A model generated the notes under the pieces. It made no database searches. It saw only the letters and a program-made list of their open reading frames with translations, and was not told the origin of the DNA. 64,000 bases of DNA from Hemicentrotus pulcherrimus. Taxonomy: Eukaryota; Echinodermata; Echinoidea; Camarodonta; Strongylocentrotidae. The stretch lies in contig BEXV01000551.1 of NCBI GenBank assembly GCA_003118195.1, forward strand, positions 117,388-181,387, written 5' to 3'. Positions 12,101 to 55,000 of this stretch are shown in pieces. Position numbers and translations under genes: made by a program. The stretch's first letter is position 1, and every line of letters begins with the position of its first letter.

Positions 12101-15100
12101 CTGTATACCAATATGATATGATTGTTGTAATTGATAGCGTAAGTGGCATGGTTTTGACCTGGATTTAATTTTTTTTCTTTAATCAGTCATAACAAATCCA
12201 AGTTGTATATATTACATCTCTATATTTGTTACTCGGCTAGCTTTCTATTGATACTTTGGGCTTAAAACTTCTGTATAAATTATACAATATTAGTAAGAAT
12301 TTCCCCAATCATACAATATATATGCATCTACTTTTAAAACCAAGTATGCATGCTCTTTCTTGCATTGTATTCAAAGATGACTGTATACTTTTGAAATATA
12401 GGATTTGGTTCATATAGTCATGTAAATATTGGATCCAGCATTTCTATGGCCGAGTTGTAGGAGCTATATTAATATTATTATTAATTTTCATTATTAACAA
12501 GTTCATGACTAATTTGGGGGAAATTGTAATTATATTCTAGTCAGAATATACTCATTCATTTGCAGAATTAAATGAAAGAGCATAACAGGGTCTTTTGGTT
12601 GCTAAATGAATTCAACCTGCTTTTATCCGTACATGAATGGGTTTTTTTTTGTGCTCCCTATCAACTTGTCCCACCTGGTTGTGAGGCTTTCTAGCATCCA
12701 CTTTAAAAATGTAGCAATGGTCTGAAATAAACCTCACAGTTTCCATCCCTCAAGAACCTCAAATCAATTCAAACTGTGTATCAGACATTTTAATGCAAGG
12801 AAATTGTCTCTGTAATTGTTAACAACAAAAAGTTACGAACTAAGGAACGTTATGATTCAATGAGAAATAAGTCAATTACTTGAAGCTACAGAGTAACAGA
12901 GTCCCAATTTGGTTAAGAAATGCCAGATATATTTTCTGCATGATTGTATAAGACAATGAGATATATACTGCTATTGTGTGACACAGTTCAAGATTCCCTT
13001 TCCCCCACCTTGTGTTTGATGAATCCATTTTCTCTAAATGCAGCAGTTGACCATCATTATGAGAATCTCCTAGTTAGAAGCTGGTAGATATTACTTTTTC
13101 TGGGCTTAGTGAACTTGAAAAAACAAACGAAAGGAAAATAGAATTGGTGAAACAGTATTAACTATCCTGAATCTTGTTCTAATTTATCCTTTCTTCATTT
13201 TTCCATCCTTCCATCCATCCCTCAAATTTGTTGGCTTTCCTTCCCTCCCCTCAACCCCTGCTTAATAAATGCCATCTCCCAATTGATGCACTGTGTCTTC
13301 AATGTGCTGAAATGAATTTCCTTTTTTGTTTTTGCTTCTTCCCTTCCGTACCTGCATACATGTGCTGTACCTGTGATGTAACTATGCGGTTTTATCTTGT
13401 AATTGATGCTTATTCATGTGGTGATTGTTCAACTTACAATTTATACCTCATGATATATGCACTTTGGGGGATAATTGTCAATTTCTGGCCTTTTTTAAAT
13501 TGGTTACATCTATCCGTTTGCTCTCTTCACTGCAATGTTTCTCTCTTTATCTACAATTCATTATTAATTCGCTAATTTATTTGTATGTGGTCAAATGTCC
13601 TCTCCTGTAAAAATGTATGTGACGCTGTGTAAATTTCTTTGTGTTCATGACTTGTTATCTGCATCTGTGTCTGCCCTTAATTTGTTCTCCATTGTTCCTT
13701 GATTTGGTCTCATAATTTACGTTCATATTCCCATTAATTATCCCATCTCAAAAATACAAATTTCATCTCTGTATGTTCCTTTTTATTAATTTTCTAATCT
13801 TTTGTTTTTGTGTTGAATATTACACAATAATGTGTATCACCACAACATTTATTTTCATCAATATTATAATTGTCTCTTTGGGTTTTATCCTTGGAATGTC
13901 CTCTGACTTTTGTTTCAAATTGGAATTCATAAATATCTATACTATTAAACTTTATCTCCTTCATAACAAAATACATTTCCTTTCTCATTGATAACATTTG
14001 AACAATTCTTTATGTATGGTTCCATGTGTTCTGTTTTGTATCATGTTGTTATCATCTACATCAAACCAACATTTTTTCCTTTTTTTCATCTCCATTCATA
14101 CTCTTATGGTATAATTCTATTTCCATGACTGTGCATAATACAATCATTATGTTAAACTATGATTTATTTATTTTCAACTCTGGTGTTATATATTCATACA
14201 TACAAACTTCCCTGTATTGCATAAATTGGTACTCTTATACCTTTTATTCACTTGACTTTACAATTATTAAATTCCACATTCCCTCCACTGATTCTGCCAT
14301 TTCATTTAAAACCCATTCTATCCTCATGATATCTTGATATGTCAATATAATGCACTTGTTCTTCCATGTCAAATCTAATTTGATTTGTATAATACCCGAT
14401 TGTTCTGCATGAAACTGATGGTATTGATATATGCATATATCTGTTGCATGATGCACTGTGACCCCCCAACCACAACACCCTTCCCTCCCCCACCCCTTCT
14501 CGATGGTGCCAACCCAACCCCCCTTCCAATAGGCTACACCCCTGAGTTTGTACCCCGCAAGAGATCCGTTTCTTCCGAAGCGGTAGTCCACGACCCTTTG
14601 GTAAAGCCCAGTGAAATCCGCAACCGCATGAGACTACAGCAGCAGACGCATTATAGTTTCAGAGGTAAAGGAATCAAGGTGTCGTCTTCATCAACAGGAG
14701 TTTAAAGTTTGAATTCCTTTCAGTTTCACAGGCAGTTTGAACGTTTAATTTCTGGTGGCAGCGGTGGGATGTTATATAATATATGATATTTTGATGTTGT
14801 GCTTAAAGGAATAAATGTCAGGAGTCGGCACCCATCAGAATTAGCCTAAATGTAGTGTTCACATTTTATTTTAAACTCTGTAAGCAAAAAAGTAATTGAT
14901 TAGACATGTCATCATCATAGCATTCCTTTTAACTTATTGTGAAAGAGGGTTTTACAAAGCTTTACAAGTTTTAAGAAGGTACTGGTAAATATTTGATAGG
15001 TTACTGATACAAGGAGCAGAGAAAATGCTCTTTCATGTTTGTTAAATTGCTCGATCACGTTCATTATGATATACTCTTTGTAAAAAGGAGGGGTTCTATT

Positions 15101-18100
15101 CTTTGATTGAGATTGAAGGAAAGATTGGGAGAATGAGAGAACGAAAGAAAAGCGGTTGTTCATACAGGAGATTAACATTGTAGAATGAGAAAGAAAGTTT
15201 CTGAACTGAGTATGTAAGCAGAGTATATATATACATGTACAGCTTAAAACTAAATTTTTCATACCCCAGTTTTTCGTCAATTTGTTGTATGTGAAAATTA
15301 GATTTTTCCTGATTTCTTTCGTTATAAATTTAAATATTAAAGCTTATTTCTGTACCGGTAATTATTGAACAAAGCCATCATTCAACGATTCCCTCTCCCA
15401 TTCTTGATTTAAGAGTAACACACACACGTTATTTGTTTACAAGGGTTACAACTAATTTAGTTGTTAATTCCATATACCGGTATACATTATTACATACTGT
15501 ACCTGTAATATTACCCCATTTTCTTCATTTTGTATCCATTAATATTTTCAATATTCTTGACCCTTTAATATCATCGCTTTAGTGTGTACGTTTCCCTCGA
15601 TATACCGCAGAGAACTTTCCTAGTTATCTCTCCTAACCACACTACAAGTTTTATCTCAATGGTCTTTCAGTCTCATAAATCTATATTGTCATCATTAAAG
15701 GCCTGTTCATATAGGCCATGCTTAATTGACATTGGCATTTTTGTCTTGTGTAGTTAATGAATGTCCAGTGGGGACACACTAATGGTCCTATGCTTATGTG
15801 TGTGTTCTAAGATACACACTTGGTAAGTGCAGTGCACCAAAGTACGCTGAAAAAACAGAATGGATCCTTGGTAAACCGTAGCAGTTTACAGCGTCATACA
15901 TGCGAGAGTACAGGCCTTAAAGGCTTGCTTAGATATGATGCAGCAAACTGCCAAAGGCCACTGCACTTTGTGCATGTGTAATAGGATGGCAGTTGCGTGC
16001 AACTAAGGTCATACTTGTATTCAGTGCGCTTAGTGTTACTAGATACCGAAATGTGAAGCATATAACACCTAGCCCCATCAAAGCCCCAGCAGTTTCACAG
16101 CGTCGTATCTACGTACTCTTAGTAAGATTTTTCTCAATCGCAATATTTGATCTTTTATTTTTCCTGTATTACCCTGTACCAGGTGGTGAAGACTCGTTAT
16201 ATGATGTGATCAGTCAGCCCTCCTCGAAGTGGGCCCAGAAGCCAAGCAATGAAGGTAAATACGTATTATGGCTGTGGGGGGGGGGGGTGTTTCACAAAGA
16301 TCGTTAGTTGAACTTATCTCCAAGTTGGACTTAACAATTATGGAAAGCCATAAGCATCATTGAAAATATCTTGTAAAAGTTATTTTTAAAGGCATTAAAT
16401 GTTGATTCAAATCATTCATATTTTCTATTATCATGGGAGACTTCGTGTTCTTGATGGGGAGTTTATGAAAAGACTTAAACACTTGAATTTTTGCTTTTGA
16501 TATATTTCATTGTAAGGCTGCAAATGGTTCTCCATATTATTTAAGTCCAACTAAGAGTTAAGTTCAACTTAAAATCTTTGTGAAGCACCCCCAGGTGTTA
16601 AAGGGTGTACAACCTATCATTAGAGGCATATTACCAAGCTGAAAGTGGGATCATATATGATGCCCTTACAAGTATGATTAGGAATAGCAGATTTTGTATC
16701 ATTTTGTCACTGATTTAGAGATGAAAGGGTTTGCATCTCCTTATCGTAATAAGCTTAAAAGGATGTGCATGAGTATTGTGTAGGCTGTAAACAATAAAAA
16801 CTAAAATCATGTCTAACTGACTTTGGGGGCAAAATGTCATTAAACCTTTGCTGCGTTTCACCCGCAAAAATGTTCATTCATATGTGTTCTTGTAAGAAGG
16901 ACGTAATATGTAGCAGCAATTCATTGAGATGGAAATCATACTGCATGTACATCTAAATAGAAGTAGTAGGTTGTGGATAATGATAAGTAATGTCCGGCTT
17001 CGGGCGGCAAAATGTCATGAAACTAATGCTGCATATCACCAGCAATCATGAACGCTAATATGTGCTCATGCATGAGGGAACTGATATGCTGCAGCTACTC
17101 ATTGAAACATAATTTTATTTGTATTTACATTTGAAATTGGTAATTTTCTTATCCTTCTCAAGTCATGATAAAAACCACTTGTACCATCATTGTTCCAGGT
17201 AAAAAGTGTGAGCATTTTTATGTTGATGCCTGGAATTGAGCGTGCCTGGGTGTGTTCAGACTTTTGCTTGATCATGTTTTACTTGATGCTAAATCATGCT
17301 ATGGTAATGATACCATGCATTTGTTTTAATAGCGCAATAGCCCCTTGTCCATGGCGCGCTAACTTAAAAACAAGGGTTACATGATAACATTATTTGTGTG
17401 CTTTCAGGGTTGCAATTCCTGGTAATGTACGTTTTCAGGACTGTTAGAGACCAAACATCAAATTCACCATAACTCTGCTTGGAACTTATTCACCGAGCAG
17501 GTGTATATTCGTTTCAGGATGGACTCTAATGTGTTTTAAAGCTCAATATTAACTCGCATGCTGCATTCTAAAGAACGTTTTTGTAATGGGGAGTTTGTCT
17601 GCAGTGTTCACAGTCCATGAGGAGAGGCGGTCCCAATGATCAAAGCCTGTGCCTTCTGGTTCCTTCCATAAAAATCCATTCTGAAAACGAAACACATTTG
17701 ATTTCTTCATAATGTCCATTTTTGATTTGATCTTTCTGTTCTGCTGATAAAAATACTTTTGGCGTGAATTTTAAAGGGTCAATTTTCTTTCTCGATTGGT
17801 GTGAAACTGTTCATGTAATTAGCATAATCTCCCAACAGCAAATAAAAGTTGAAGAAACTTGCTGTGTTTTCATTTGTTCTTGTTTCCTCTCTTTTTTTAA
17901 TTGCCATGTCAGCTTTTTATTTGGCCTTTGAATATGGATTGCAGCATGGGAAGTTTAAATAATGAGGGCAATCTCTAAACAACATTTCTTCTTGATTTTT
18001 ATTGAAGTGAGGATTTATGGTGTTTTATTATTATTTTTTTACAACCACACCTTTCCCCACCCTCTGCTCTCCAACCTTTCTTCCATATATTCCTCAATAC

Positions 18101-21100
18101 CCTACTTGAAATATACTACCCCTTTCTTTCCATATACCCCACCCCCTTATAACATCTCATTATACCACCCCTTATGCCAAAAAAACATATGCCAACCCAA
18201 TACCCCACCCTCTTAACTACCCCTTTCCTCTCATATATACCCCATTACCCCCACCCCATTATCATACCTATCCCCTCTCTGATAAACCCATCCTGTATGC
18301 CATCCCTTATACCACTCCTTATACCACCCCTATACCACCCCTATACCACCTCCTTATACCACCCTCCTATACCATCCCCTTATACCATCCTCCTATACCA
18401 ATCACTTATACTACCCTTGTTTGTTATGTATATACCGCGTCCCCATCATACTATCCCATTTCTTACCACCTTCCTATACCATACCCTTAACACGCCCTTA
18501 CACCTCTCCCATAAATCACCCCTCCTTATATCACACCTTTAAACCAACCCATTATACCTCTCCAATACGCCTCCCCTCCGTGCATACCCTTATGCCACGC
18601 CCTTATACCACACCCTTAAACCAACCAATTATATTACCCCTTTCCTTGCAAGCAGCCCGCATATACCATACAGCCAACTATGAATCCAGGCAGCGCCGGT
18701 GGGGCTCGGAAGTGCGGCGAAAGCCAAACTTGCCCATGCCCTCGACACCTCAGAGTTCTGGTACAGAAGGTAGAGATTCTGTTGAAAGATTATTTCAATG
18801 TCTTTTGTCTGCTTGTGCACTCCCTGTATGTAGTGCCCTCTGTGCATTGTGTTACTAATACTCATCCTGTCTTTATTATTCTGTCCTCTCTATACTGTAA
18901 AAGTGAGATTTGGGGGTAACATTAATGTCGAGTACTGATCACTTGCATATAGGTGAGAGAAAATAAAATAAATGATGCAGTGAGCTTTCATTTTGTTCCT
19001 TTGTCAAAGAACATCATGTCAACCAATATAGGAGCATAACACTTGATGCATTTGTAGCTATTGTTCACATACTAAACAAAGTAAACACCCATAAAAGGCT
19101 TTGTTGCATCAAAGATCCTCTGTCTAAAAAAGAACACATTTTTTGTTCCCTTGAAAATTGTTTCTCATTAAAACCTATACTAAAGAAACCTGTACATGGA
19201 GACTACATGCTGATACAGACTACTTGAGTGATCCTTATATACAGGTTTTTTAACTGTAATTGGCTAACCGAATTGTCTGTGCATAATGATTAAGTATGTT
19301 GGTAGGTCTGTCAGTCATGTTTGAAATTCAATAATAGAAGTTGACAGAAGAGCAATTTTCACACGTCACGCGTACAATCCCCCAAATATTACTTTTACAG
19401 TATATATTATTTGTTTTCTTCACATTCTTATACATTATATAGTAAAGCAAAACAACGATGTAGAGATTGTGATGTGTCTTTGTGTTTGCACCGTACATTA
19501 ATATAACCAATTGTGCATTATGGTTCTGTATGTCTGTCTGTCCGACTCTTTGTGTATGTCACCCTGTTATGGAGTTTTGGTCTTTGTGGATCTTTGTTTT
19601 CCATTTTTTTTTTTCAATTTTGACTTTCCTCATTATTTTCTAAAATGTATCTGTATATCTTTATGTTTTGTTTATTTATGCTAATTTCCAGGGGTGATTT
19701 TCAGAAAATGGAAATAGTGTATTTTAAAACTTTTTTATTTGTTAAATGTTTTACTATGACTGGAGGGTAAGAATAACATTTAGGAAAAAAGATGAAAGGA
19801 AGATTAAAACAAGAAAGGAAAAAAATCACCAACTCCAATTCCAACGCGTTCAAAGACACATGCATGCTGAAGCCCGATATCAATCAGGTGTGCTAGCTGT
19901 GATATTCATGTATTTGAAATAGCATTCCTAGTTTCCTTGTGGACAAAACTCTGACATCATGTTGTCTGCATATTCCTGTTCTATGCATGCCCTGGGAGTA
20001 CATCCATAAAATCAATTTAAAAATAAAAAAAATATTTAGTCGATTAATTTATTTACATATTTTTTAAAATTATATATTTCTTCATTTATATATTCATCTA
20101 TTTGTCTATATATCTATCTATTTTCTTAATGATAAAAAAAAAAATCAATACAATTATTTAAATGTACTGTTATTCTGTTTTTTAGATAATTTCTTCAGCT
20201 GCCCTTTATATTTTGTACAATATTCTACATTTGCATTGTTGGTCATTGCATATGTGTGTGTCTTCACTTGTATCTGTCGGGTTTGTTGTACTGTTATATG
20301 TATAAACAGGGTGTAGAAATATATATGGTGTGTTCATTTATTCTCAGTACATGCAGCATTACATACAGCATTCCTTCCGCACAGACCCTCTTGGATCTAC
20401 CTGTAATACATTTACTCCGCAATACAAATTTTAGCACAATTATTATCGTTTTGTGTGATGTGCGTTCAGCCATTTTCAGCACTATTAGACCGTCACAAAG
20501 GCAGATACCTAGTGAATTACTTGAATCAGTATGTGCTTTCCTGCCTTATAGTAAAACAAAAAAATCATATTATACCGGAGCTTGGGGAGAAGGTCATCAC
20601 ACTTGTCCCATGTGTCTAATGGAGTTTTATCAGTGCACCTGAAAACTTTTGTATTTTACTCTATATGGGTGTTTTTTCTCCTTCATATCCGACCATGGCT
20701 TTGGTTTTTATTGTGGTTTTAGAATTATATGCTATGTTATCACCTCTATTTTGTCTTAAAATTCTATGTATACATAGAGTGTGTATATGTTAAGATGTAT
20801 TTAAGCTGAGTGATTTGTCCATTGTATACTACCACTTGTGAATACAATTCATTCCTTTTTCATTGGCTTTTCAAAGATCTGCCTCGGTGCCTTAGAACAA
20901 TGACTAACATTTCTGTAGTAAAAAAACAATTTTTCTCTTTGTTTCTCTCGTTCTCTCCTTCCATCCTTTTTCTGGCTTTTCGTCTTAACATTTTCTACCT
21001 CCCATACTGTCCTAACCACCCTTTCCATCACAAATCGTCATTTCCTTCAACTCTTCTTTCCTTTCTCTTTCATTCACTCTCTTCTTTACTCTTATTTAAA

Positions 21101-24100
21101 CTGGTCCTTTCCTCTACTTTTCTATCATTCAATCATTTCTTATGTGTTTCTCTAACACCTCCTTTTCACTGTCTTCTTTCTCCTTCTTTCTTTTCTCCTT
21201 CTTTCTATTCTCTTCCCTCCCATCTTTCCTCCTCCCCCCTGCTTCGCATTTCGCATAACGCTTCATCCACAACTACCATGAACATCTGGACAAAAACAAA
21301 AAAATGAACATTTTTTGCCGTAGCGCACTATATACATGCGGAGAGGAGAGGCTCAGAACCAGTACGGCCATCGGTGGCGCTGTCGGCCCGGCCACATCAA
21401 GGTTTGTTCAAATGCATGCTTGCTAAATTGCTTTTTCCCTGAGTTTCTTCATCTTGGATTGCTAACGTGTTTTCATTTGAACTCCATTTCCTCATTTCTT
21501 TCCCATTTTCATTTTAACCTTGTTTCATTTAGTTTTCTTAGATTTTCTGTGTGCTTGTAATCCCGCTTTCTGCTCTTTTTGTTTTTGAAAGTTTTCTTTT
21601 GTTTCATGTTTGGAGCCAGAAAGGCATTAATTCATTTACTTTAACCCAATGACTACTGAGACTGCTTGTTTCCAGGGGGCAATTGGTTGATAACAGAGTA
21701 GTGCCCTTCTGGCTCTGTACAGATAGTTCTTTCATCTCTTCCCAGATCTCCAGAGACTGTTTACTATTCTCCCTTTTTGTTTTATCAGTTATCATTCTTA
21801 ACAAGTTTTCTAAATTTTTTTGTATGAGTAAAGATCTTAACTCCCTCCAGTTGTTTACTCAAATTTGCATCAGAGTTTTAAAAATTATTTTCCCTTTTTG
21901 TTTGAGCAGTTATCATTTTCTTTACTTTTCTGTATGAGAAGGCCCTTAGCAAAGATGCCAACCAGTTTGATTAAATGGTATTAAGAACGATTATAAGAGT
22001 GTAATACGATCTTTAAATCTTAAAATACCATTTTTCATCTTTTTTTCCAAAAAACAAAAAAACAAAACCCCATTAAAACAGTGGAGTTGCATAGAGACAT
22101 GTCCAAGAAAACCCCCGCAACCCCAATAAAAACATTGTGTTACAATTTCCTCATTACATTTTAATGAAAGAGCAAACATTTTTTCTTAAATTTTACTGGC
22201 CCGGGGCTGGCAGGCCAGTGGTAGTTTCAAGTTTTTTTGTGAAAATCTGATTTTTCTCTCCAAAATCTGATTGTTTAGGATAGTCTGTTTTCTTGTGTCA
22301 AGAGGTTGGCATCTCTGCCTTAGTGTCCATTGTTTATCAATTTCTCATCCATTTTTTCTGCTGAACCTGAATGTTGGTGTTTATTTTCTTTCTCTTTGTT
22401 TCATCAGTTATAGTGTACCATAGCAACCAAGTTTTCTTTATTTTTCTGTATACCAGCAAGTCTTAACTCCCTTCACCTTTCAATTATTTATTCCTCTATT
22501 TGCAAAACCTGAATGTCTCTTTTAATTTTCTCCATCTTTGTTGTATCAGTTATCATTGCTACCAAGATTTGTTTTACTTTTTTTTCCTGTATGATTACAA
22601 ACCTAACCTGCCTTAAATTTTGTTAGTATTCATTTCTTTCTTTGCTGAAGCAGAGTAAGTTTTCTATTTTATCCCTCTTTGTTTTATGAGTTATCAGTGC
22701 ATACCAAGTTCCTTTATTTTTCTGCATGATTGCAAATCGTTCTGCCCTCTTTAGTTTTTCATTGATGATTGATCTCTTTGCAAATTCAGTGCATTTTTAA
22801 AAAAAAATTCTTATCAGTTAACACTGTTTACTATAAACATTCCTTAATATTTTGATTTCAATTACAGACCCGAATCATTTTATCTGCCGAGACCCAACAG
22901 GTGTTATTCATATCAGTCCTCTAAAACAGTTTAAACCCTTCTCGCTCTCAACATACTGATTATACATGTACTTCCTTTTGTTTATGAAACATTTTCCTAT
23001 GGAAATGCCCAGTCTCTCTTGAATAGTGGTCTTATTTGTATTGTTTTGTTTCATCCATTTTCTTAAATGTTGTGTTATATGGTTTATGTTCTTAACACAT
23101 TTGTTAAGTACTTTGTTTTCTCAAGATGTCGGTCTCTTTCCCAGGGTTCTTCACATAATGATTCATTTTGGGGGGTCTTCACATTGTTATACAAGTAGAT
23201 TTTTATTAACCAGATGAAAAACTACCACCTATTTTACCAAAATTAAGTTTATTAACGCCCTCTCTTTTTCTGTAATAAAGCTTAATTTTGAATATTTGTT
23301 GCAGATGTTAATTTATACATTTCATCAATGTTCTGTATTATAAGTAGACCTAGACCATAATTCCAACAGTATAGTATACAGAGAAAACTTTTGTGGATTG
23401 AGTTGTGCTATACACGTATGTACATGAATATATTACTTACATTATCATTATATTTCATTTTGTAACTGTAAACAAGTAATGTACTGAGTGATTACTCAAA
23501 TTAAAAATGCAGTTTATGCTTACCGTATTCCTTTTAATACATGTACATGTACATATACAATAACAAAAAAGAGGAAATAGAGATAAAAGTAGGCCAGAAA
23601 TTTGCAGATCAGAGGATCCTGTGTAAAATGTTTGGTTTGCTAACTTGTTAATGGGGAAATCTATGACAAACATTTTTTTTCCAAGGTGCATATATCAACT
23701 ATAAATTTGTGTCCCTTTGAAGGCAAACCAGCCCTGTGAAATCTTTGCACTCCCCACCTCATTTCTAAAGTGATGATGCTGTATTTTTTCCTATCAAATT
23801 AAAGTTCAACTTTATGAAAGGACATTTACCCAAGGCCCTTTTATATTTTCGCCTTTATCTTTTCCTGGAATTGCATGTTTTACTTTTCAAGTTAGAGCCC
23901 TATTAAAACGATCCTGACCCATAATTATGTTTGCAATAATGATCTTTCCGGAATTATTCCTAAGCATTTTCAGGTCTCTTCACTCCATGTAAAGGGGGAT
24001 AATGTCCTGTTTCAATTTTTTTCTTCTGAAATGATAATTATTTGATTATTTCATTACATCTCTCCTTCATGCTCTGATCAGACTCCTACTGTCATAGTCC

Positions 24101-33100: not shown

Positions 33101-33992
33101 TTTTCATGTCCATTTTCTCATGAGAGATATATCCATGTCAGCTCTTATGAGATGCATGAGTTCACATGATTATGATTCATGTAAGGTCCTATATCGTGTA
33201 TGCATTTTCATGTCCACTTTCTCATGACAGATATATCCATCTAAGCTCTTATGAGGTGCATGAGTTCACATGATTAAGATTCATGTAAGGTATTGTATCG
33301 TATATGCATTTTCATGTCCACTTTCTCATGAGAGATATATCCATCTAAGCTTTAATGAGGTGGTGAGTTCACATGATTATGATTCATATAAGGTCTTATA
33401 TTGTATATGCATTTGTATGTCCTGTTTATTTGGAGAGAGGTCCTTGGAAGCTCTTGTGAGGTGCATGAGTTCACAAGACTATGATTCATATATTAAGGTC
33501 TTACATTATATACTGGTATGCACTTTCAGCTCCACTTTCTCATGAGAGATATATCCATGGAAGCTTGTGTGAGGTGCATGAGTTCACATGATTATGATTC
33601 ATATAAGGTCTTATATCGTATATGCATTTTTCATGTCCAGTTCATTATGAGAGAGGTACGTGGAAGCTNNNNNNNNNNNNNNNNNNNNNNNNNNNNNNNN
33701 NNNNNNNNNNNNNNNNNNNNNNNNNNNNNNNNNNNNNNNNNNNNNNNNNNNNNNNNNNNNNNNNNNNNNNNNNNNNNNNNNNNNNNNNNNNNNNNNNNNN
33801 NNNNNNNNNNNNNNNNNNNNNNNNNNNNNNNNNNNNNNNNNNNNNNNNNNNNNNNNNNNNNNNNNNNNNNNNNNNNNNNNNNNNNNNNNNNNNNNNNNNN
33901 NNNNNNNNNNNNNNNNNNNNNNNNNNNNNNNNNNNNNNNNNNNNNNNNNNNNNNNNNNNNNNNNNNNNNNNNNNNNNNNNNNNNNNNNNNNN

Positions 33993-34032
<40 letters not shown>

Positions 34033-43000: not shown

Positions 43001-46000
43001 AGATGGGGAGTCATTGTACGGTGTTGTCAACAAGAAGCGTGACAGAAAACCGGCCAATAGGGATTTAGGTGGCCGCATTGTAGACAGACCGGCTGAAGTC
43101 CCTGAAGATTCTGGTTTTAGTGGTAATTCAAATTGATTTTGATTTAAACAAACCGAGAAAACAAAAAACACATCATGCAGCATTCATCAAACTTTCTTTT
43201 CTAAAGATCAAATATATTCTATGAAGTCTTGGGATGAAGACTACATGTGTGTTAGCAACCATGCGCTAGTATAATTATAGAGAAAAGAGAGATGGTGTGA
43301 GCATGCTTGAAAGAGAGAGAGAGAGAGGGAGACGGGAGGGGTCAAGATGCAATATATATAGTAGGTTCACCTGTCGCATTTAAAACATGACTTTTCTTCT
43401 CTATTTTATATCAAAATATCTATCATCACTGCCTGCCAATTTTAAATATTATGAACATCATACATCAAGTTCTGTATTACTATTTACAATTTTGTTAAGA
43501 CTTTTTTTCTTCTTCATTTCAAGCACTCATTAGTTCTTGTTTAATTGTTTTAACTTGCTATCCCATTCCTTTTTACTCTGCATACATTGCTGTTGCAACT
43601 TTAAATCCGTTTAAAGCAAATAATACAGAGAGAATAAAAAAGAGATATATAGAGCTTAGAGAGAGAGAGAGAGAGAGGGGGGGGGCGGATGAAGAGATGC
43701 ATGAAGTGAGAGAATGAGGAAGATGGAGAAGGAGTAATAGAGAGAGAGAAAAGAGAGAGAGAGAGGTATCGGGTTGGGAGGGGAGAGTTTTGCATTCTTA
43801 GATTCTCTTTGTTTACTATCTTATTTCTTTTGGCAACCTCAACATAGTTTTAGTATTTCTACCTCACTTGCTATGCAAAATATGATTATATCTCAGCGCT
43901 TTCACATACATCCTTAATGGTTCCGACGTAATTTTCATTTTTAATCAAACTCCGCAAAGTTTCTTGTGAAACGAAGTACACCATGAAAATGTAGAATATC
44001 CTTTGAGATACATTTCAGAATGATTCTCTTCATGTAATAGCCTGTATTACATAATCACCTAAAAAATACTCACAAAATATTTGCTTCTGTTAACAGTTAT
44101 GCTATGGTCACATTACCCCAAAGTGGCCTGCTCTGCGAGTTTTTAACCAATTCTGTTCGGCGGCTGCCCGGCCATTGAGCGGCGGCCGCCCAGGCACCGC
44201 TCGTTATTAGTGCATCGCTCAGTCGCCGCTTAAGTTTTAGCGTGGAGTTAAAATTTGGGCGGCGCCTGCTCACTTTTCACTCGCCGCCCAAAATACGCTC
44301 GGTTCCTGGGCGGTCGCCGCCCGGCACCGACCTAATTGCTGGGCAACACCTAAATTCCAGCAGCGACAGAGCAGGCTACTGATCGGTCGGTCGCTGCTCA
44401 GATTTGTGAACATAGTTTTAGGGAGAAAATCTGGATTCAATTGAAACATTATTGAGTGGGCTATGAACTTCGGCTCGTAGTCACACAATTAACTAAATTA
44501 TTCATATCTTTACTATTTAACTATGTGAAAAATTGATTAGTCCAGATTTATCTTTTTGAGAATGTGACATATTAAAGACGAAAATTATACAAAATAGACC
44601 ACGTTCCTAATTTTTTCTGTAACAGGTTGACAGGTAAGAGTCAGATATGGATGGCTCTGCCTGAGATCACCAGTTGCCAAACCAGTTCTTGTGCATTCAA
44701 GATATAGTTTAAATGCAAAAATAATTACAGTACCATCTAAAATTTTGACACTGGTCGTTAATTATTCTGCCATGCACTGTTGCTGTAAGTACATTTATCT
44801 GTACACTTCATGGTGTTCCTATAAGGTTAAACAACTATGTCTGCTTTTCTCTTAAAATGCTTCTTGTGTGATCATTTTCTGCAAATATACAGGTTAACAA
44901 TTCTTTTTCTTAACCTCATGATAATTCACCTTGTAAGAGATTCCAGATTTCTTATATTTCTACTTTATTCTTTCAAATGTCTGAATATTACCATGTTATT
45001 ATTTCAATAAACATTGACATAGTGAACACTGTCCTGCATGTGAGTAAAGTACACATACCTTTTTCAGCTGTTGAGTATTTTTATGTTACTAACAAATATG
45101 CCTTAAGACAGTGATTGATCAAACCCTCTTTTTGAAATTAAGGAATAATTTTTTTGTTTTCCTTTGTAATGATGTATTGGTAAGTATATGTACTCGTGCT
45201 ATTTGCTTATGAAACTGTTTGTTGTATAATACGTGTTCTGATACCATGCATTGCACTCAAGTTTGATGTGAGCCAAAATATGTTTGATTTCACCTTAAAA
45301 CAGACATTAAAAAAATTCAGAACAGACTTTCATACCCCTGTTTTCCCCCATGTCTGAGGACTCCACTGCCCATGGAATAAGTGAAAGTCTTTTGTGATGG
45401 CGTTGCAAAAGGCTTGCTTGGAGTCATCAGGTCATCGCGTCAGGTTGTGTGGTCACGTTACCCGACCTTTTGTGAGCACATGCCCCTTCATTCACCTCAA
45501 GTCAGGGGTAATGTTTGTGAAATGAACCCCTCTCCCATTGGGTCCAATTTACCAGACACTTTGTGAAATGTAACCCTACAGCTTCTACTTTTCTACTTTC
45601 TACTGATCTTCTACTTTTGTTTCTCGAAAGGTTGTGTAATGGGACCACCCGACCGTCCTCAATGACCTGATTATTTGAAGTAAACCTTCTACATAGTACC
45701 TGAATGACACTCCAATAAAAAAAACTAATTCATTTTGCTGCCATACAAAGTGAATGACTAGGCATGCTTAACAAATGGACGTGAAACCTCACCTTTTTTT
45801 TTTTAATGAACAAAATGAGATCAAGAAATCTGCCGCTTTGTTACTACCTATTTTTCCTCTATACAAATGAGGGTACCACAAAAAAAAAAATACAGGCTTG
45901 ATGTTTGGTTGAAATGTTTGTTGTTTATACATGTTAGTTTGTGTCATTGTAAACAGGTCTTTACGCTTCAGTAGACAGAGGGTTCAGGACGTCCACGCCA

Positions 46001-49000
46001 GATACAAATCGCTCCATGGAAGGCTCAGGTCAGTACCATAAGTGCATTTATGTGTTTGTGAAGAAAGAAAATACATTGAGTTGAGAGTGACTAGGCTAAG
46101 AAAACTCATGAAAAGTTTTTTTTAAATGGAATTACCGGTATTACCTCTCAGGAAGTTTCGCCTATTGTAGAAATTGGGATCAGGGAATGGTTGTTTGTTA
46201 TATGTTTGTAAAAATGCAAAAGCAAAAAGAAAATCAAACAGAAATAAATAAATCTAATCAAATCAAATCAATCTACCTTCCATTTTTGGTTCTTTGGTTA
46301 TCTCTCCCTCTCTCTTTTTTCCCCCGTTTGTTTCTCTCTTGTTCTCTATCTCTTGTTCTCTATCTCTCTTTCACCCTCCCTCTTTCTCTTTCACCCTCTC
46401 CCTCTCTTTCTCACTCTCTCTTTTATCCACTCTCTCTCCCCTCTCTCTGAGAATTTCATTAATGAGGACTAAAATTTAGAAAACTTGTAGCTCTTGTATC
46501 ATGAAACATAGTAAACAAATCCACAGAGACTGAGCTGACTCTATTGTTTCAATATTTGTTATGATAAGCATTCATCTCGGACATCCTTGTATCTTGTTGT
46601 CTCTTCTCAATTAGTTACTTAACATTTTCGACTAAAAACCATATTTGTGTAAATGTATGTGTATCCTTCCATGTTAATATTACATTATATGTTTAGTGCT
46701 TCATTTTTTTTTGTTGCTTCATGAGTTTCATCTTACATTCTTTACACTTTTTTGTGGGTGGGTGTGTGTGTTTAAGTGTATAGGGTTTTGGTCTTGACTA
46801 AAAAACTAAATCGATCTTGTGTTTGTGTACATCTATGTGCATCCTTCCGTGTTAATATTACATTACATGTCACGCAAATTTTTAATCATCATGTACATGT
46901 ATTAGTCAAAACATACTCTTTCACAGGATTGGTAATAGGAGCTTTCATTTAATTTTTGTCTCGCCTGCGTAGCAAAAAAGCGAGACATAGCCGCTTTTCC
47001 GGTGGCGGTGGCGGCGGCGCGACGACGGCGTCAACATCTAAAACTTAACCTAATGTTAAGTTTTTGAATTTTTGATAAAATTTTGAAAGTATAAGTCCTC
47101 AGTCAATGAAGCTAGGACTATAGGGTTATCAAGTATCTCCAATCATGTGAATCGAATTTCAGGTCACAAAGTCGAGGTCAAATGTCATTTCAGGTCAATA
47201 GACTTAGACTATGTTGTGGCATCATTATCAAAAAACTTAACCTAAGGTTAAGTTTTTGAATTTTCGATATAATTTTGAAAGTATAAGTTCTTAGTCCATG
47301 AAACTTGGACTATAAGGTAATCAAGTATCACAAGTCATATGACATAAATTCCAGGTCACAAATTCAAAGGTCATTTTAGGTCAGTAGACTTGGATTATGT
47401 TTTCACATCTTAATATGAGAATAAATGAATCAATTTTTGTTATTTGTTCATGATTCTTAATCAATATTCACTTCACAATGCTGATTATATTCAGAGGATT
47501 TCATTTTTAGGGGCCTGCAAATGGGCAACCCTGCCATAAATAATGTTCCAACCTCAATATTTCATCATATCGAATTGCGTAATGCAGGCGAGACCACCGG
47601 GAGCATTTCCCTAGTTTGAAATTGGGGCGTTTCCAATACTGGTCTTTACCTTTAAGATTTGAGGCCCTTTTTTTTTATACTGGTACGGTTATGTAATAGC
47701 TTTATTTGCACAGAAAATAAAATAGGTCTGTGGTTATGCAGTAAATTTCTAGATCATACTTGATACTGTTATGTGTCTACAAAAATGTGTATCCTCAAAT
47801 ATATGTAATAAGATACTGATTTGTATTACGCATCCTCAATTTACAGCACAGACGTGTATGTGTGGCGTATGTGTGTCATGTATTTGTCACTCTTGCTTTG
47901 CATGATACTTGATGTCGCTTCTTTAAGTTGATGTGTGTGCATTCTACCGCTGCAGGTTATGAGAAGCCTTACTTTAAAATAAAATACATATTATGGTTGG
48001 CAAACATTCAAATGTTTGGGGAAAAATAAAATATTTAAAGGATTTAAAGGGAGTATTATCATTTAGTTAGAATTTTGTGGCTGTCCCTATACAGTGCGTC
48101 CCAGAAAAAAAACGAAACCGAGAACTATCGATGTTTGATCATAACTTAATCACAATTATAATTAATAAATGACACATATTTGGAAAGCCTTAATCCTCCT
48201 CATTTTCATTTGATGCCTGAGAAACAAACAGAGATAAAAGACTCAACTTGGTTTCATTGTAGATCAGCCATGCATCAGATCTTTCGTCTTCTTTGTGCAT
48301 GGCTGATTGTCAACGAAACGGAGTTAAGTCTTTTGTCAACTCTATTCGCTGCAATGGCAAGAAGCCAGTAAAAACGAACTTGTTTGATCAAATTATGGAA
48401 ATGCAAGCATTACTTTAAAAAAACAGAACCCTGATATTCCTAGCTCATTTTTCCTGATTGAGGTGTCATATGAAAGGGGAGAAATTGAACTTTCTAGAAA
48501 TGTGATTATGACTTTCTGGTTTCCTCTCTTCAAATTGCTTTTCATCACTCATGCTTGTGGTACGCCGTGTAATAGAAGAAAAATTGAAGGAATCATTATT
48601 ATAAACTACATATTGAGATCTATCAGAAAGATTACTTTCAAACCAAGATGACAGACAAATTTGATTGTTGTTCTAGTTTCCGAGTAGTGATTCAACACAT
48701 TGATTGCTGAGCTGGGAGACATTGCCAGGCACAGCGCCAGGTGGAGGGGCATAAATTGAAACTTTAAAAAAAGTGTATGAGTGTACCGTGTATAAACCGC
48801 ACCCCAGACTTTGATTTTTTTCGGCGGCAAAAAGGTGTGGTTTATACACCGTTAAGTACGATACAAATAATGTTTAAAAGCTGAAAAATATTGAAAAATT
48901 ATGGCCTAGGAATGTATGTGTTTTTTTCTGTTCACATTCCTTAAATTACATGTTATGATATTTTGATTCCTATGGGTTGACATTTTGTAAAGTAAGCAGA

Positions 49001-52000
49001 ACTAACACACACTAAAATGCATCATTTTTTTTAAAGCTCACATATTGCAATATACACTATGAACATGATGGACAAAGCAAGCGGACAAAATATACAGTTC
49101 CTCATTCTACCCTCAACAATTGCTATGGTAGACAAAGGAACATCCCTTCACTGCTATTATGTCAAAATGTGTAGAACAGGTGAATATGCATGTGACACCT
49201 GTTCTACAGATTTTTACATAGGAGCAGTGAAGGGATGTTTCTTTGTCTACTCTACCTTAGCAACTGTTGAGGGTAGAATGAGGAACTGTATATTTTGTCC
49301 GCTTTCTTTGTCCATCATGTTCATAGTGATACATACACTGTACCTTCACATGTAAAAACTACCTTCAAGCAGGCGCAAGTAAAGCACACTTGAATGCAAT
49401 TTTATTTGCTTTTCATTTTTTATTGCGGATACTTGTAGCATCACAATGATTCTTAACGATACATTTATATTGATCATATGAATTGATGTTGCCTTCAAAG
49501 AAGCATAACTAAATATAACAAACTAAAATGCATCATTTTTAAAGTTTTATTTTCAACAAACATTATGAAAAAAAGAAAAGGTCACCATCATTTGCCACAG
49601 CTTTAGCAGGTCATTCACTTCCACAGTGTGCGATACAAAAGACAAGTTCAGAGATAGCACTTGTTCAAATGATAGCCGCAAATCTTTTAAAACAGAGAAA
49701 AGTTCTACCATGTGCATTGCAGAATAATCACTACTCTATGCATACCTTTTGTTTGCCCTCTCTAAAAAAAAAAGAATCCACCTGTGTATCATATCATTAT
49801 AGTATTATATACCGTTGGTGCATAAATTGATAATTATTACATATGGGTCTTTATATTTGTGAAAATTACCTTTATCTGCCCTAGTGCAGCTGCTATCTCC
49901 GAATTGGCATACATACAGTCAAGAAGGATACCACAGTCGCACCAAAGAAACCAACACCAGGGCCCTGTTTCACAAAACTTGTTATCAATAGCAAGTTAAA
50001 AATAGCTGTTATAAGCTACTAAAATCATGGCATCTGATTGGCTGACAGCTAATTTGTCAAAGAATGTAAGCATTTGTTATTGATCAGAACTTTCATGAAA
50101 CAGGGCCCGGGTAATATTTAAACTGAAAGATTTGTTAAATCTACAGCTGTGTTTGGCCAGCAAGAAAGATGGAAATTACCAGGCCTTGCCCCGGATGGGA
50201 GCAAAGAAAACACTACTGCTTTACCGGACGAAGAAGAAGCAGAGCTTGAGGGTTTGTGCATTTCTAAGAAATCTGAAAACATACCTTTACAATTCGTCTT
50301 CCATATAATTTGTTCAAAGACTTAAAGGGACATCGCCTTGAATCATCTTTAAAAAGTGCGATGTAAATCCAGTTATTATTATTTAGGCATCGTGAAAACT
50401 CTGTCTGGACATTTCTAAAGTCCCTCGCCCTTTGTATGAGGGATGCCAGGAAAATATGCATGGCAATATTTCTTAGTTATTCAGGATAATATTAAATTAA
50501 AAAAATATATGATTTGTATTTTGATTTGTCATGCTTTTGAAATCATGATTATAAAAGAAAGTGTAATTTTAAGAAATATGCAAAGCTGCAATTATTTCTG
50601 CATATTCTTATTTATGTTCCAATTGCAAAATTTGAAAACGATTTTTATTTTAAGGTAAACGTCATTTTATAGGTTGAGCAAGCAAGCATATCATGTTAAT
50701 ATAACAAAACAGGAACATTTGACAAAATGTATAAAGAAATTATCAGTCACATACATGTTAACTTATTACCATAAACACAGTTACCAACTAAATTAGTCAC
50801 ACCCTAACCAATTTGTATAATTTTTCAAGTAACGATAGGTCATGTACTGCAAATATAAATATGAAAGTTGGTCTTGACAAGTAAGTGTATGCAACAAATG
50901 GAAATGGACAGTTTAAGAGAGGCAGAGACATAAAACATTACCCTAATTGTCTTATTTATAATGTTACAGCAGAACAATATACCCATACAGTTGACCTTCT
51001 ACAAGTCAACCTTGTATGTCAAACAATTGCCTTTAAAAGATGATGAAGCGGATCCTAATGAAATGATTGTTTGAGAGTGTTGTGTGAACACATGACCAGG
51101 CATTTATTTTGCCTAACACATAATTTTACTAATGACCGATCATTAAACGTCATCTACTTTATACAAATAATACACATCATTTTGTTCAGGCATTAGTAAA
51201 ATTACCCACACTCGGTACCTTCAAAACAGTCCAAACAAAGTGTTTGACTGTTCCAAAGGTACCTTGTGTGGGTAATTCTTACTAATACCGTCACTGCTAT
51301 GTTTCATTTCTATAAAGTAGACCAGAATAAAAAGTCCGAATTTTGTTATCATAGATGTGTGTCGATCAAATTCCCAGGATCCTTGTTATGGAGAACACAA
51401 AAATTTACAGCGTCAAAGTCAAAGCCAAACGAAATCAATCACTGGCAAAGCACGCATTACACACTGATTTTGTTTACACAATACGCCCTTGGTGGCCCTG
51501 TATTCTAGACTTGCTCGCGCGCGCTCCGCGGTTCTCTCTGTCTCGTATCTACCTCTCTCTCTCTCATTCAGTTTGACCTTTTTGTTTCTAATTCCTCTTA
51601 CATGGATTATTTTTTGGACGATCATGTTCGTTAAGATCAGATACATGTAAATGAGCATGTAATTTTGTGGGTCATGACAAGTAAAGTTATACAACTATTA
51701 GAAATAGAAAATTTAAGAAAGACAGAGACATTACAATTGTCAAACTTGTAAAGTGACAGCAGAATGGTACATATTTATGAATTCTGTCATGTTTCATGTA
51801 CATGTATGTTTTCTTGTTTTGTCTGTGTTTTATGTCTTTTCCTCCTTCAATCGATTTAACATGTCTTCTTTCCTATTTACTGCAGAAAATATATCTCTTT
51901 GGTTCTGTACAAGTGTTGCCTTATTCTGCTAATGAACTCCCTTTGTTGTGTTGTGGTAACTTTTGCTATTTAAATGTGTTGTACCCTCCCTTCTCTCTTT

Positions 52001-55000
52001 CTCTCTATCTCTCTCTCTCTCTCTCTCCCTCTCTTTTATTTGCATATCAAATAACAATCACTTTTTCTCACACACATGTTGTTTTGTAGGGATGGTAGAA
52101 AACGTGCTATACGACTCTTACAACAACCAGAAGTCACCGGCTCAAACAGGTACAGTCCTTATATTTTTTTAGATTTGTTAACTACATAGGAATAGAAAAT
52201 AAGAATGATTGAAGTCAATTTGAAGATGGAAAACTGTTTGATGTAGACCTTAAGAAAACTCTGAACTACTATTGGTTAGTGATCGATCCCATATTCACCC
52301 TCTGTCTTGTTATTGGTCAATGATTGATCCCATATTCGCCCTCTGTCCTGCCATTGGTTAATGATCGATCCCATATTCACCCTCTGTCCTGCCATTGGTT
52401 TATGATCAATCCCATATTCACCCTCTGTCCTGCCATAGGCGAATGATCGATCCCATATGATGCCTCTGTCCTGCCATTGGTTAATGATCGATCCCGTATT
52501 CACCCTCTGTCCTGCCATTGGTTAATGATTGATCCCATATTCACCCTCTGTCCTACCATTGGTTAATGATTGATCCCGTATTCACCCTCTGTCATGCCAT
52601 TGTTTAATGATCAATCCCATATTCACCCTCTGTCCTAGGCAATTCCATGGCCTACGCCACAGTGCCAGATTTCAGAACTTCAGAGGAGCCGGAGGAAGGG
52701 ATGCAAGAGAACCCTCTTTACACCCCCTTTAGCCCCACCTTCAGCCCCACACCTTCTGAAAGCAGTAGACAGAGGCAGGAGCCACCACCAATCGCGCCTA
52801 AACCAGGGGTAAGTACCTGCACCCTTGTGATCATTAGTGATCCCCCTTTCTTAAAAAACGGACACCAAAGGTTGCAAAAGTTGTGCTTCTGTAGGGTCTG
52901 ATCTCTAGAACCCCGCCCCTCGGACAGGAACCAGTAGACCAACTGTTCCTAAACCAGGGATATGTCTGTGCACTCTTTTATTCGTCTTTCCAGATAGGAA
53001 CCATGACCCACCACTCCCCAGCAACTCGGGGGTACATCTCTGCACCTATTTGATCATTAAATCCCCTACCCACACTCCCACTTCACCCCACACTCTGTTT
53101 TTAAGTCATCAATTTTTATAAGTTTTGATTTTGTCCTTAGGGTCTGGGTAGTCCCTTGTGCTTTGTGTAATGTAAGCGCACATGTAAATATGTTGCTATA
53201 TTATGCAAAGCCTGCTTTTAGTTATAATTTGTTGGTGTAATTTCTATGTCAAATGGGATAGTGGTTTTCCTTCAAAGGTATATCTGGAGAGCATTAAAAT
53301 ATATAAACCAGGTTTTGCTATTTTTGTGGATATCTGTTAAAATATCGTGTAGCCACACCTTTCCCTCAATACTAGATAATGCATATTCTTGCTGTTAATA
53401 TGGTAAAGGGCTATTAAGCATATCAGTGTTTGCTAAACTAGTCATGGAACCGGTGCATTTTCCTCGTTAATGTTTCTTTTATTTAAGATATGTAGGCATG
53501 CTCTTTTCCCTGATTATATTTTTCTCCTTGGGAATGCTGGAAATATAACCGTTCTATGATATGTTTATTTATTCTTTTCTCCCCATTAATTGTTTTCCTT
53601 TCCTCAAACCATACCCTTGGCTTGATTCAATGTCTTCATTTTTTGTTCATCACCAAAAAAAAAAAAAAAAAAAAAAAAATTAATTTCATGGACATTTGAT
53701 TTACAATTTTAACTCTGTATGATATTTTTGTTTTGTTTTATGAACTACATTACATCATTTATGATTTGCTTTTTATCATGGCTTATAATACAAAATAACT
53801 CATTGGATTTGCTAAATACATCAACTTGAATTATGGATTCATGATGCTTTTATTTATTGATAAAAATTATCTCATCTACTCTGTTAAAACATTTTCTCTG
53901 TATTCTGGATATCAAACAAATGCTTAAAATACATTAATTGATATACAACCAAATCAATACATTATGAAAAAAACAAATTATCTTTTTTGATTCTTTCACC
54001 TCTGCTTTTGTCATTCCTGTGCCTATGTGTATATGCACAAATCCAAACCCTTCCTTCCCCCCCTTGCTATCCTTTCCTCCCCCCCCCCCCACCCCCAGAA
54101 ACTGGACCTTACTAAATTCCCTGTACGCATGGAGGGGCTCATGCGCCCCATGGGTAACGTAAACCGCCCCAACGACCTCCCCGTGTGGCACCACCGCAGC
54201 ACCCCCACCCACAATAACCACCCCCCGCCCTTTGCTAGCCCCGAGAGCGATGAGGGGGCGGGGTACTCCAGCCCGGCCGACGCCCTCCCCTTTGATCAAG
54301 TCCGAAGGGTAATCGGGAGCAGCTTTAGGACCGGTGGTAGTAGCGGAGGAGGAGGGGGTCCCCAGTCAGGAATTTACTCACAGCCCCACGATCACCTGCC
54401 TCGCGGCACTGTAAGTTCGCTCAGTCTTGCACCCCCTTTCTCTGTCTGTGCATCGTTATCAAAAGAGAGAAAGTGAGCATGTGCTTTAGTTCTCTCAGCA
54501 CTGTGTGTTTGTAGTGAGCTTCTGATATGCCTCTGCCCCAACCGAAGGCGGTGCAGGAGGCATTATGTTTTGGGTTGCCCATCTGTCCATCCGTCTGTAC
54601 GCCTGTCCCTCTTTCTCGTTAACGCAATATCTCAAGAACAATTTAAGAAATGAATTTCAAAATTTGTGATAATTTGTTTCAACATTGGAAGAAAATCTTA
54701 TTAGGTCAAAGGTGAAAGGTCACACAGGTCAACTTATGAAATTCCAGGTGTTAGCTTAGTTATCTGAATATCTCAAGGACCACTAAAGATGTGAGGCACA
54801 AACTTGTTGATAATATGTAATTACCAAAGGAAGACAATCTGATCAGATTTTAAATTAATTGGTCAAAGGTCAAAAAGGTCAATTTCTGAAATTACAGGTT
54901 TTCAGCCTTGCTTTTTGCGATATCTCAAGCCAACCATAAGAGATAGGCTTTTTATTTTCATCATGTTATGTCACAGATTAATCCATCCATTTCCTTTACT

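Follow-up and report, generated by a model that had tools for sequence, protein, structure and literature searches.

Twenty small symmetric exons in a sea urchin p190 RhoGAP gene: a predicted splice-variable hinge with duplicated tyrosine motifs

The stretch of DNA considered here (the window, 64,000 nucleotides (nt) from the sea urchin Hemicentrotus pulcherrimus) carries on its + strand the middle part of a p190 RhoGAP gene, and within this gene an array of 20 consecutive small exons, numbered 9 to 28, that spans positions 14533-52149. The assignment to p190 RhoGAP, made earlier by a sequence-only reading of the window, was borne out. The spliced product had the pG1/pG2 region expected of a p190 protein (PF19518, 5e-66, residues 13-369), its pG1 part matched the solved p190B pG1 structure 5u4v_A (6.9e-22), and eight isoforms of Strongylocentrotus purpuratus were 85-95% identical to it in local alignment. 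The first residues alone of the RhoGAP domain lie inside the window and gave no Pfam match there; in orthologues PF00620 is complete. The precomputed domains of the orthologue numbered P0001 include N-terminal PF00071, PF16512 and PF23083, and the part corresponding to them lies beyond the window in H. pulcherrimus.

We found all 20 exons at the places given by the sequence-only reading, with AG/GT borders, a terminal G and a length divisible by three in 20 cases out of 20. All are of phase 1-1 and 42-132 nt long, and together they make an open reading frame of 1530 nt, or 510 codons. They had been called micro-exons; a micro-exon in the strict sense is shorter than about 30 nt, while the shortest exon of the array has 42, and we speak of small exons instead. 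When all exons of the model were spliced together with their neighbours, the product was 1219 amino acids (aa) long and free of stops; when all 20 array exons were left out, the frame remained intact and a stop-free product of 709 aa was obtained.

The tyrosines of the array, 23 in number, are distributed one to an exon in 13 exons, two in five and none in two, so that the earlier description of single-tyrosine cassettes holds for 13 of the 20. In 16 of the 20 exons a Tyr occurs no later than residue eight, compared to a mean of 7.1 in shuffles (p 5e-5), and a hydrophobic residue at +3 follows 13 of the 23 tyrosines, compared to a shuffle mean of 4.4 (p 1.5e-4); both p-values are optimistic because the exon copies are not independent. 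Two core motifs described before were confirmed, namely Y-[GA]-x-V-[ND]-[KR] in seven exons (19, 20, 21, 23, 24, 25 and 26) and AYGE in four (15-18).

Pairwise comparison of the cassettes gave 13 pairs out of 190 that passed the 0.001 shuffle level, with 0.19 expected. Exons 15-21 and 25 fell into one similarity group, 23 and 24 into another; exon 26 shares the motif and fails the 0.001 level. The pair of exons 13 and 20 also passed, which looks like an effect of shared Lys/Pro composition in the two peptides. Each of exons 15, 16 and 17 lies, splice borders included, in a copy of a 96-nt DNA repeat (86% and 61% identity). Thus, tandem exon duplication, as had been proposed, is supported by this repeat and by copy-level similarity over ten of the 20 exons (15-21, 23-25). 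The ratio of nonsynonymous (dN) to synonymous (dS) divergence was tried on ten exon pairs, in four of which dS was not computable; exons 15 and 16 gave dN 0.053 and dS 0.824 over 17 codons. By their motifs, exons 9 and 28 are old p190 border exons and not units of the array, because LVKPS in exon 9 and [DE]N-x-[LIV]-Y in exon 28 recur in the p190 proteins of other phyla. An LVKPS-like motif was present in 9 of 14 proteins checked and was lacking in two hemichordates, two crinoids and Holothuria.

An origin of the cassettes from chance open reading frames was rejected, because the motif-bearing stretches exceed those of shuffled sequence and because orthologous proteins contain the peptides. 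The count of exon-like stretches with the family motif was 27 on the coding strand, 4 on the opposite strand and 0-3 in ten shuffles, with a motif pattern picked after the cassettes were known and with overlapping stretches counted on the coding strand. A further 33-nt phase 1-1 candidate at 22868-22900 was dropped; it has no Tyr and matched none of 148 collected proteins. These 148 relatives came from three protein searches, of which we took all 25 hits, the best 120 of 863 and the best 120 of 659.

The cassettes are present in predicted proteins of S. purpuratus, Lytechinus variegatus and L. pictus. We compared 17 such proteins, eight of S. purpuratus (with names up to X14), five of L. variegatus and four of L. 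pictus; all are isoforms in National Center for Biotechnology Information (NCBI) gene predictions rather than read-level splicing data. Skipping without a frameshift, which the sequence-only reading had expected, is what these models display, since in all three urchins the isoforms omit cassettes in combinations. Transcripts that never contained the cassettes, or that joined exon 8 to exon 29 throughout, had been named as the outcome to count against that reading; the predicted isoforms follow neither pattern. For example, S. purpuratus X14 joins exon 11 to exon 26, X11 does the same with exon 12 only added, X13 has only exon 18 between 11 and 26, X12 only exon 24, and X10 exons 12 and 20. At the other end, X6 has exons 12-18, X7 the same minus one YGE unit, and X2 nearly all cassettes without 13 and 27. 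Of the cassettes 15-25, the eight S. purpuratus isoforms have none, one (exon 18, 20 or 24) or more. Measured between the TPTSG motif and exon 29, the hinge varied in this species from 154 to 449 aa, with 8-23 Tyr and 2-10 YxxV/I/L sites, and reached 512 aa in L. variegatus. X12 and X13, which carry different cassettes, have lengths only 2 aa apart. Cassette content likewise varies among the five isoforms of L. variegatus and among the four of L. pictus, exon 9 being missing from all four of the latter. Compared to S. purpuratus X2, the window differed at 26 of the 708 residues aligned beyond the array and at 32 of the 445 within it, as a close but distinct species would, and the YGE units differ as well, with three YGEY in S. 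purpuratus compared to two YGEY and one YGEF in the window. The model of Diadema setosum stops after exon 9. Taken together, the isoform models suggest a splicing dial for the number of signalling sites displayed.

Table 1. Exons of the p190 RhoGAP gene in the window; isoform counts refer to the 17 predicted urchin proteins unless a species is named
Feature	Length (nt)	Position	Strand	Remark
Eight upstream exons, pG1/pG2 and linker start		23-128, 4190-4313, 4908-5106, 6183-6365	+	
Eight upstream exons, continued		8353-8610, 9520-9680, 10234-10372, 11172-11212	+	
Exon 9, LVKPS motif, border exon	132	14533..14664	+	both Tyr replaced by Phe in L. variegatus
Exon 10, SLYDVI	72	16183..16254	+	present 17/17
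Exon 11, two Tyr (IYHTANYES)	114	18656..18769	+	present 16/17
Exon 12, HYIHAE	78	21324..21401	+	present 7/17
Exon 13, basic/Pro-rich PTKPKVKPKPPIR	90	24706..24795	+	present 7/17
Exon 14, without Tyr	42	29057..29098	+	present 6/17
Exon 15, core VAYGEY	54	29545..29598	+	tandem copy
Exon 16, core AAYGEY	54	29977..30030	+	tandem copy of exon 15
Exon 17, core AAYGEF	54	30612..30665	+	tandem copy
Exon 18, core PAYGEI	69	31287..31355	+	sole family cassette before exon 26 in S. purpuratus X13
Exon 19, core PAYGVV	69	32778..32846	+	
Exon 20, core LYGVV	66	34591..34656	+	sole family cassette before exon 26 in S. purpuratus X10
Exon 21, core LYGTV	69	35166..35234	+	
Exon 22, GMYKEA, without family core	57	36360..36416	+	Tyr to Trp in both Lytechinus
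Exon 23, core LYGTV	78	39020..39097	+	Tyr to His in L. pictus
Exon 24, core MYAVV	75	41782..41856	+	sole family cassette before exon 26 in S. purpuratus X12
Exon 25, core LYGVV	120	43003..43122	+	
Exon 26, core LYASV, motif only	72	45957..46028	+	present 17/17
Exon 27, without Tyr	105	50147..50251	+	L. variegatus 5/5, S. purpuratus 0/8, L. pictus 0/4
Exon 28, ENVLYDSY, border exon	60	52090..52149	+	present 17/17; counterparts in other phyla
Exon 29, MAYATV, PPPIAPKP		52639..52808	+	
YxxP-pair exon, GYSSPADA and GIYSQPHD		54099..54410	+	candidate counterparts of mammalian Tyr-1087/Tyr-1105
Four downstream exons, basic stretch and RhoGAP start		59194-59413, 61857-61891, 62757-62801, 63773-63908	+	

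Besides the exons of Table 1, the window has several features in and around the gene. A 42-nt phase 0-0 exon NSQAYQGSGRNFSQ at 2391-2432 lies within pG1 and was omitted from the gene model used here; its counterpart was found in 13 of the 17 urchin isoforms (all those of S. purpuratus and L. variegatus examined) and in none of the four of L. pictus. At 7605-7697 there is a 93-nt exon-like stretch IGMCLACGDPFSPELVLPFLRTHNYSLSLD, in frame and with splice borders, which resembles a copy of the first part of the pG2 exon (8353-8610). Its peptide CLACGDPF matched none of the 148 collected proteins, and from its sequence it looks like a duplicate exon that is rarely or never used. Six tandem copies of a unit of about 100 nt are found in the intron that precedes exon 19 (31909-32556). 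Between exons 19 and 20 there are 324 N (33669-33992), at a place where L. variegatus has additional YGV units, and this gap could hide another cassette. A 41-nt tandem repeat at 52198-52677 reaches into the start of exon 29 and could bear on its splicing. Two related palindromes, at 49055-49328 and 56311-56536, have arms of 78 nt (96% complementary) and 68 nt (91%) and are probably two copies of the same small mobile element. One more assembly gap (an N run) is at 60106-60348.

Outside the urchins, a comparison that had been proposed along with the first description, related cassettes were fewer and were found in two starfish. Patiria miniata has four (YGEV, YGEV, YGVI and YGVV), missing from three of the four isoforms examined, and Asterias rubens has one. 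For each starfish cassette, 14 comparisons with urchin cassettes were made without correction, and a match reached the shuffle floor of 0.001. With one to four related cassettes in starfish, the unit is by this sequence evidence old and was expanded in urchins. Tyr motifs also occur in the linkers of sea cucumbers and crinoids, IYAQINKP and IYATVTKP among them (those of Antedon were read by eye only); their best shuffle p against the urchin family ranged from 0.001 to 0.06, again with 14 uncorrected comparisons each and a floor of 0.001.

A survey of the hinge was made in the 18 of 28 proteins that had usable landmarks (four urchins including the window, and 14 others). Tyrosines with a hydrophobic +3 residue numbered 15-16 in the four urchins compared to 1-6 in the other 14 proteins. 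Hinge length differs too, at 592-659 aa in the urchins compared to 199-384 in 12 of the 14 others and a maximum of 434, and therefore Tyr density separates the urchins less than Tyr number does. The pattern YG-x-[VIFYL] separated them better, occurring 8-9 times in urchins, four times in Patiria and at most once in each of the remaining 13 proteins. Isoforms also differ between the LVKPS and [DE]N-x-[LIV]-Y motifs in Limulus, Parasteatoda, Larinioides and amphioxus (P0044, P0078, P0054, P0094), and no such difference was seen in Centruroides. The variable insertions of Limulus, spiders and amphioxus stand just after LVKPS and are of other sequence, with no member of the tyrosine cassette family. 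In bilaterian p190 proteins the hinge would thus seem to be an alternative-splicing site of long standing, which echinoderms may have filled with duplicated tyrosine units.

What could such an array do? In mammalian p190A, residues 380-971 restrain the GTPase-activating protein (GAP) domain via binding to residues 1069-1231 (PMC9840978), and the array is located between the urchin counterparts of the masking half and the GAP-side half. We give about an even chance to the reading that the array is an alternatively spliced hinge of the echinoid p190 RhoGAP, in which splicing would set the predicted YxxV/I phosphotyrosine sites that stand between the autoinhibitory half and the GAP domain. Each core cassette would present one tyrosine of kinase/SH2 type (aliphatic residue or Ala at -1, small residue at +1, and V, I, F or Y at +3) on a Lys/Arg/Pro-rich spacer, and splicing would fix which motifs, and how many, separate the pG1/pG2 half from the YxxP pair and the GAP domain. 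Src- or Abl-type kinases are putative phosphorylators of these tyrosines, and the putative binders are SH2 proteins with a hydrophobic +3 pocket, not chiefly p120RasGAP. SH2 proteins with such a pocket are those of Nck, Src-family, SHP2 or PLC-gamma type. The number of bound partners may then govern the location and openness of the GAP. The wider proposal is a splice-programmed phosphotyrosine code, in which no family cassette, one, a block or nearly all of them would determine the number and identity of SH2 partners and, through these, where and how strongly RhoA is turned off, the old bilaterian splicing site having been filled by echinoderms with duplicated tyrosine units. This proposal is tentative, and we would sooner bet against it than for it.

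Several observations weigh against a role of the tyrosines as signalling sites. They are not kept significantly better than the residues around them: the fraction of Tyr kept was 13/16 compared to 285/394 for other residues in L. variegatus (Fisher p 0.57), 16/16 compared to 337/359 in S. purpuratus (p 0.61) and 12/14 compared to 212/303 in L. pictus (p 0.37). The claim of special conservation of Tyr was withdrawn after these tests in three species. Tyr is lost in exon 22 of both Lytechinus and exon 23 of L. pictus, and in exon 9 too. When nine Tyr cassettes of the window were aligned to their L. variegatus orthologues with the Tyr as the anchor, the +3 residue was identical in 8/9 and was V or I in both species in 7/9; the identity of 8/9 does not differ from that of the cassette tails (125/177, p 0.21). 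On the other hand, the -1 and +2 positions (each identical in 3/9, with -1 aliphatic in both species in 8/9) have drifted notably compared to the tails (p 0.02 each). In form the core motifs do fit the preference of human tyrosine kinases, which as a rule favour aliphatic residues at -1 and +3 (PMC11136658), except that five of the family exons, YGE units included, carry Ala at -1 instead. Finally, the mammalian masking contact is independent of phosphorylation (PMC9840978), and therefore recruitment of partners is favoured over direct unmasking.

Tyr conservation not significantly above background would also fit a linker-length device, in which the cassettes mainly altered the length and charge of the hinge and the tyrosines were passengers of the duplicated unit. 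The spread of hinge lengths among the S. purpuratus isoforms and up to the L. variegatus maximum, the splicing of the hinge in other phyla without the cassette family, the absence of Tyr from exons 14 and 27, and the precedent of titin PEVK, the length of which is set through splicing (PMC6469411), all favour such a device. We nevertheless regard it as somewhat unlikely, given that Tyr clusters near exon starts, that hydrophobic +3 residues are commoner than in shuffles, and that S. purpuratus X12 and X13 swap cassettes with almost no change in length. Unlikely, too, is neutral growth, in which symmetric exons duplicate harmlessly in a disordered linker and the isoforms are splicing noise. The turnover of copy number and identity among the YGE units, the absence of exon 27 from 12 of the 17 isoforms, the losses of Tyr in exons 22 and 23 and again a Tyr conservation not significantly above background speak for it; the low dN relative to dS between exons 15 and 16 (17 codons) speaks against it, as do the clear Lytechinus counterparts of most cassettes, with identity 0.69 in the array compared to 0.80 outside.

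That the isoform combinations are chimeras of the gene builder, most transcripts having one fixed set of exons, we consider improbable: every isoform examined is indeed an NCBI prediction, but skipping is exact to the frame in the models of four echinoderm species (three urchins and Patiria), and different single cassettes occur among the S. purpuratus models. It is most improbable that the array multiplies the docking site of p120RasGAP. Mammalian p190A recruits p120RasGAP in the same linker through two tyrosines, Tyr-1105 and Tyr-1087 (PMC6938330, PMC6523970), and the Tyr-1105 peptide, EEENI(pY)SVPHDST, has Pro at +3 (PMC6938330). By sequence alone, GIYSQPHD in the exon at 54099-54410, present in 16 of the 17 urchin isoforms, resembles mammalian NI(pY)SVPHD and is a linker YxxP site. 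This YxxP pair, however, sits outside the array, the site class of the array is YxxV/I/F/Y, and only 2 of its 23 tyrosines are of the YxxP type, for which reason amplification of RasGAP docking was rejected.

It is difficult to learn from natural proteins how many docking sites a scaffold must have. Here the predicted isoforms of a single gene range from zero related tyrosine cassettes to eleven, and the embryo is readily injected and imaged; if transcripts match the models, one could test directly how RhoA control responds to graded numbers of tyrosine sites. The locus also illustrates clearly how exon duplication builds up a motif array, and starfish living today have smaller arrays of this kind. 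In the open-licence PMC literature on p190 RhoGAP in echinoderms and on tandem cassette-exon tyrosine arrays we found no description of the array, in agreement with the sequence-only reading; the peptides themselves are already in NCBI gene models. What is new is that a Rho regulator has a duplicated array of tyrosine cassettes, with predicted single-cassette isoforms, the p190 RhoGAP family being already known.

Clusters of the Dscam type are made of duplicated variable exons, and the urchin array is similar to them in its duplicated exons and in the single family cassette of S. purpuratus X10, X12 and X13. Unlike Dscam, other urchin isoforms carry many cassettes, and RNA pairing of the docking-selector kind was not found in 16 crude scans of 250-nt flanks, none of which went beyond 30 shuffles each. 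Multi-docking substrates of the p130Cas type also have many tyrosine motifs in a disordered stretch, there of the YxxP class, and we know of none with one motif per skippable exon. Titin PEVK likewise has many small duplicated exons and a length varied by splicing (PMC6469411), which in the urchins is seen in predicted isoforms. It is a mechanical spring, whereas the urchin array belongs to a Rho regulator and has a Tyr core in each unit, and the PEVK ratio of at least 0.54 used as a cut-off for titin (PMC6469411) was reached by one of the 20 urchin exons, so that the array is not PEVK-like in composition. Exon 17, which reads EEIAAYGEF across its border, recalls a Src test peptide, EEIYGEFF (PMC546003), although the YGE units differ from the peptide by the Ala at -1. 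Mammalian p190RhoGAP-A and -B (ARHGAP35 and ARHGAP5) belong to the same family and have the linker at the same position, between pG2 and RhoGAP, with YxxP tyrosines that are kept in urchins; the mammalian linker is described as having few regulatory tyrosines, of YxxP type, and the account in PMC6523970, in which the word exon does not occur, mentions no exon array. Also similar are the p190 proteins of the starfish P. miniata and A. rubens, in which YGEV, YGVI, YGVV and YGTV cassettes stand at the same place; there are four such units in Patiria and a single one in Asterias, compared to eleven Tyr-core units in the window.

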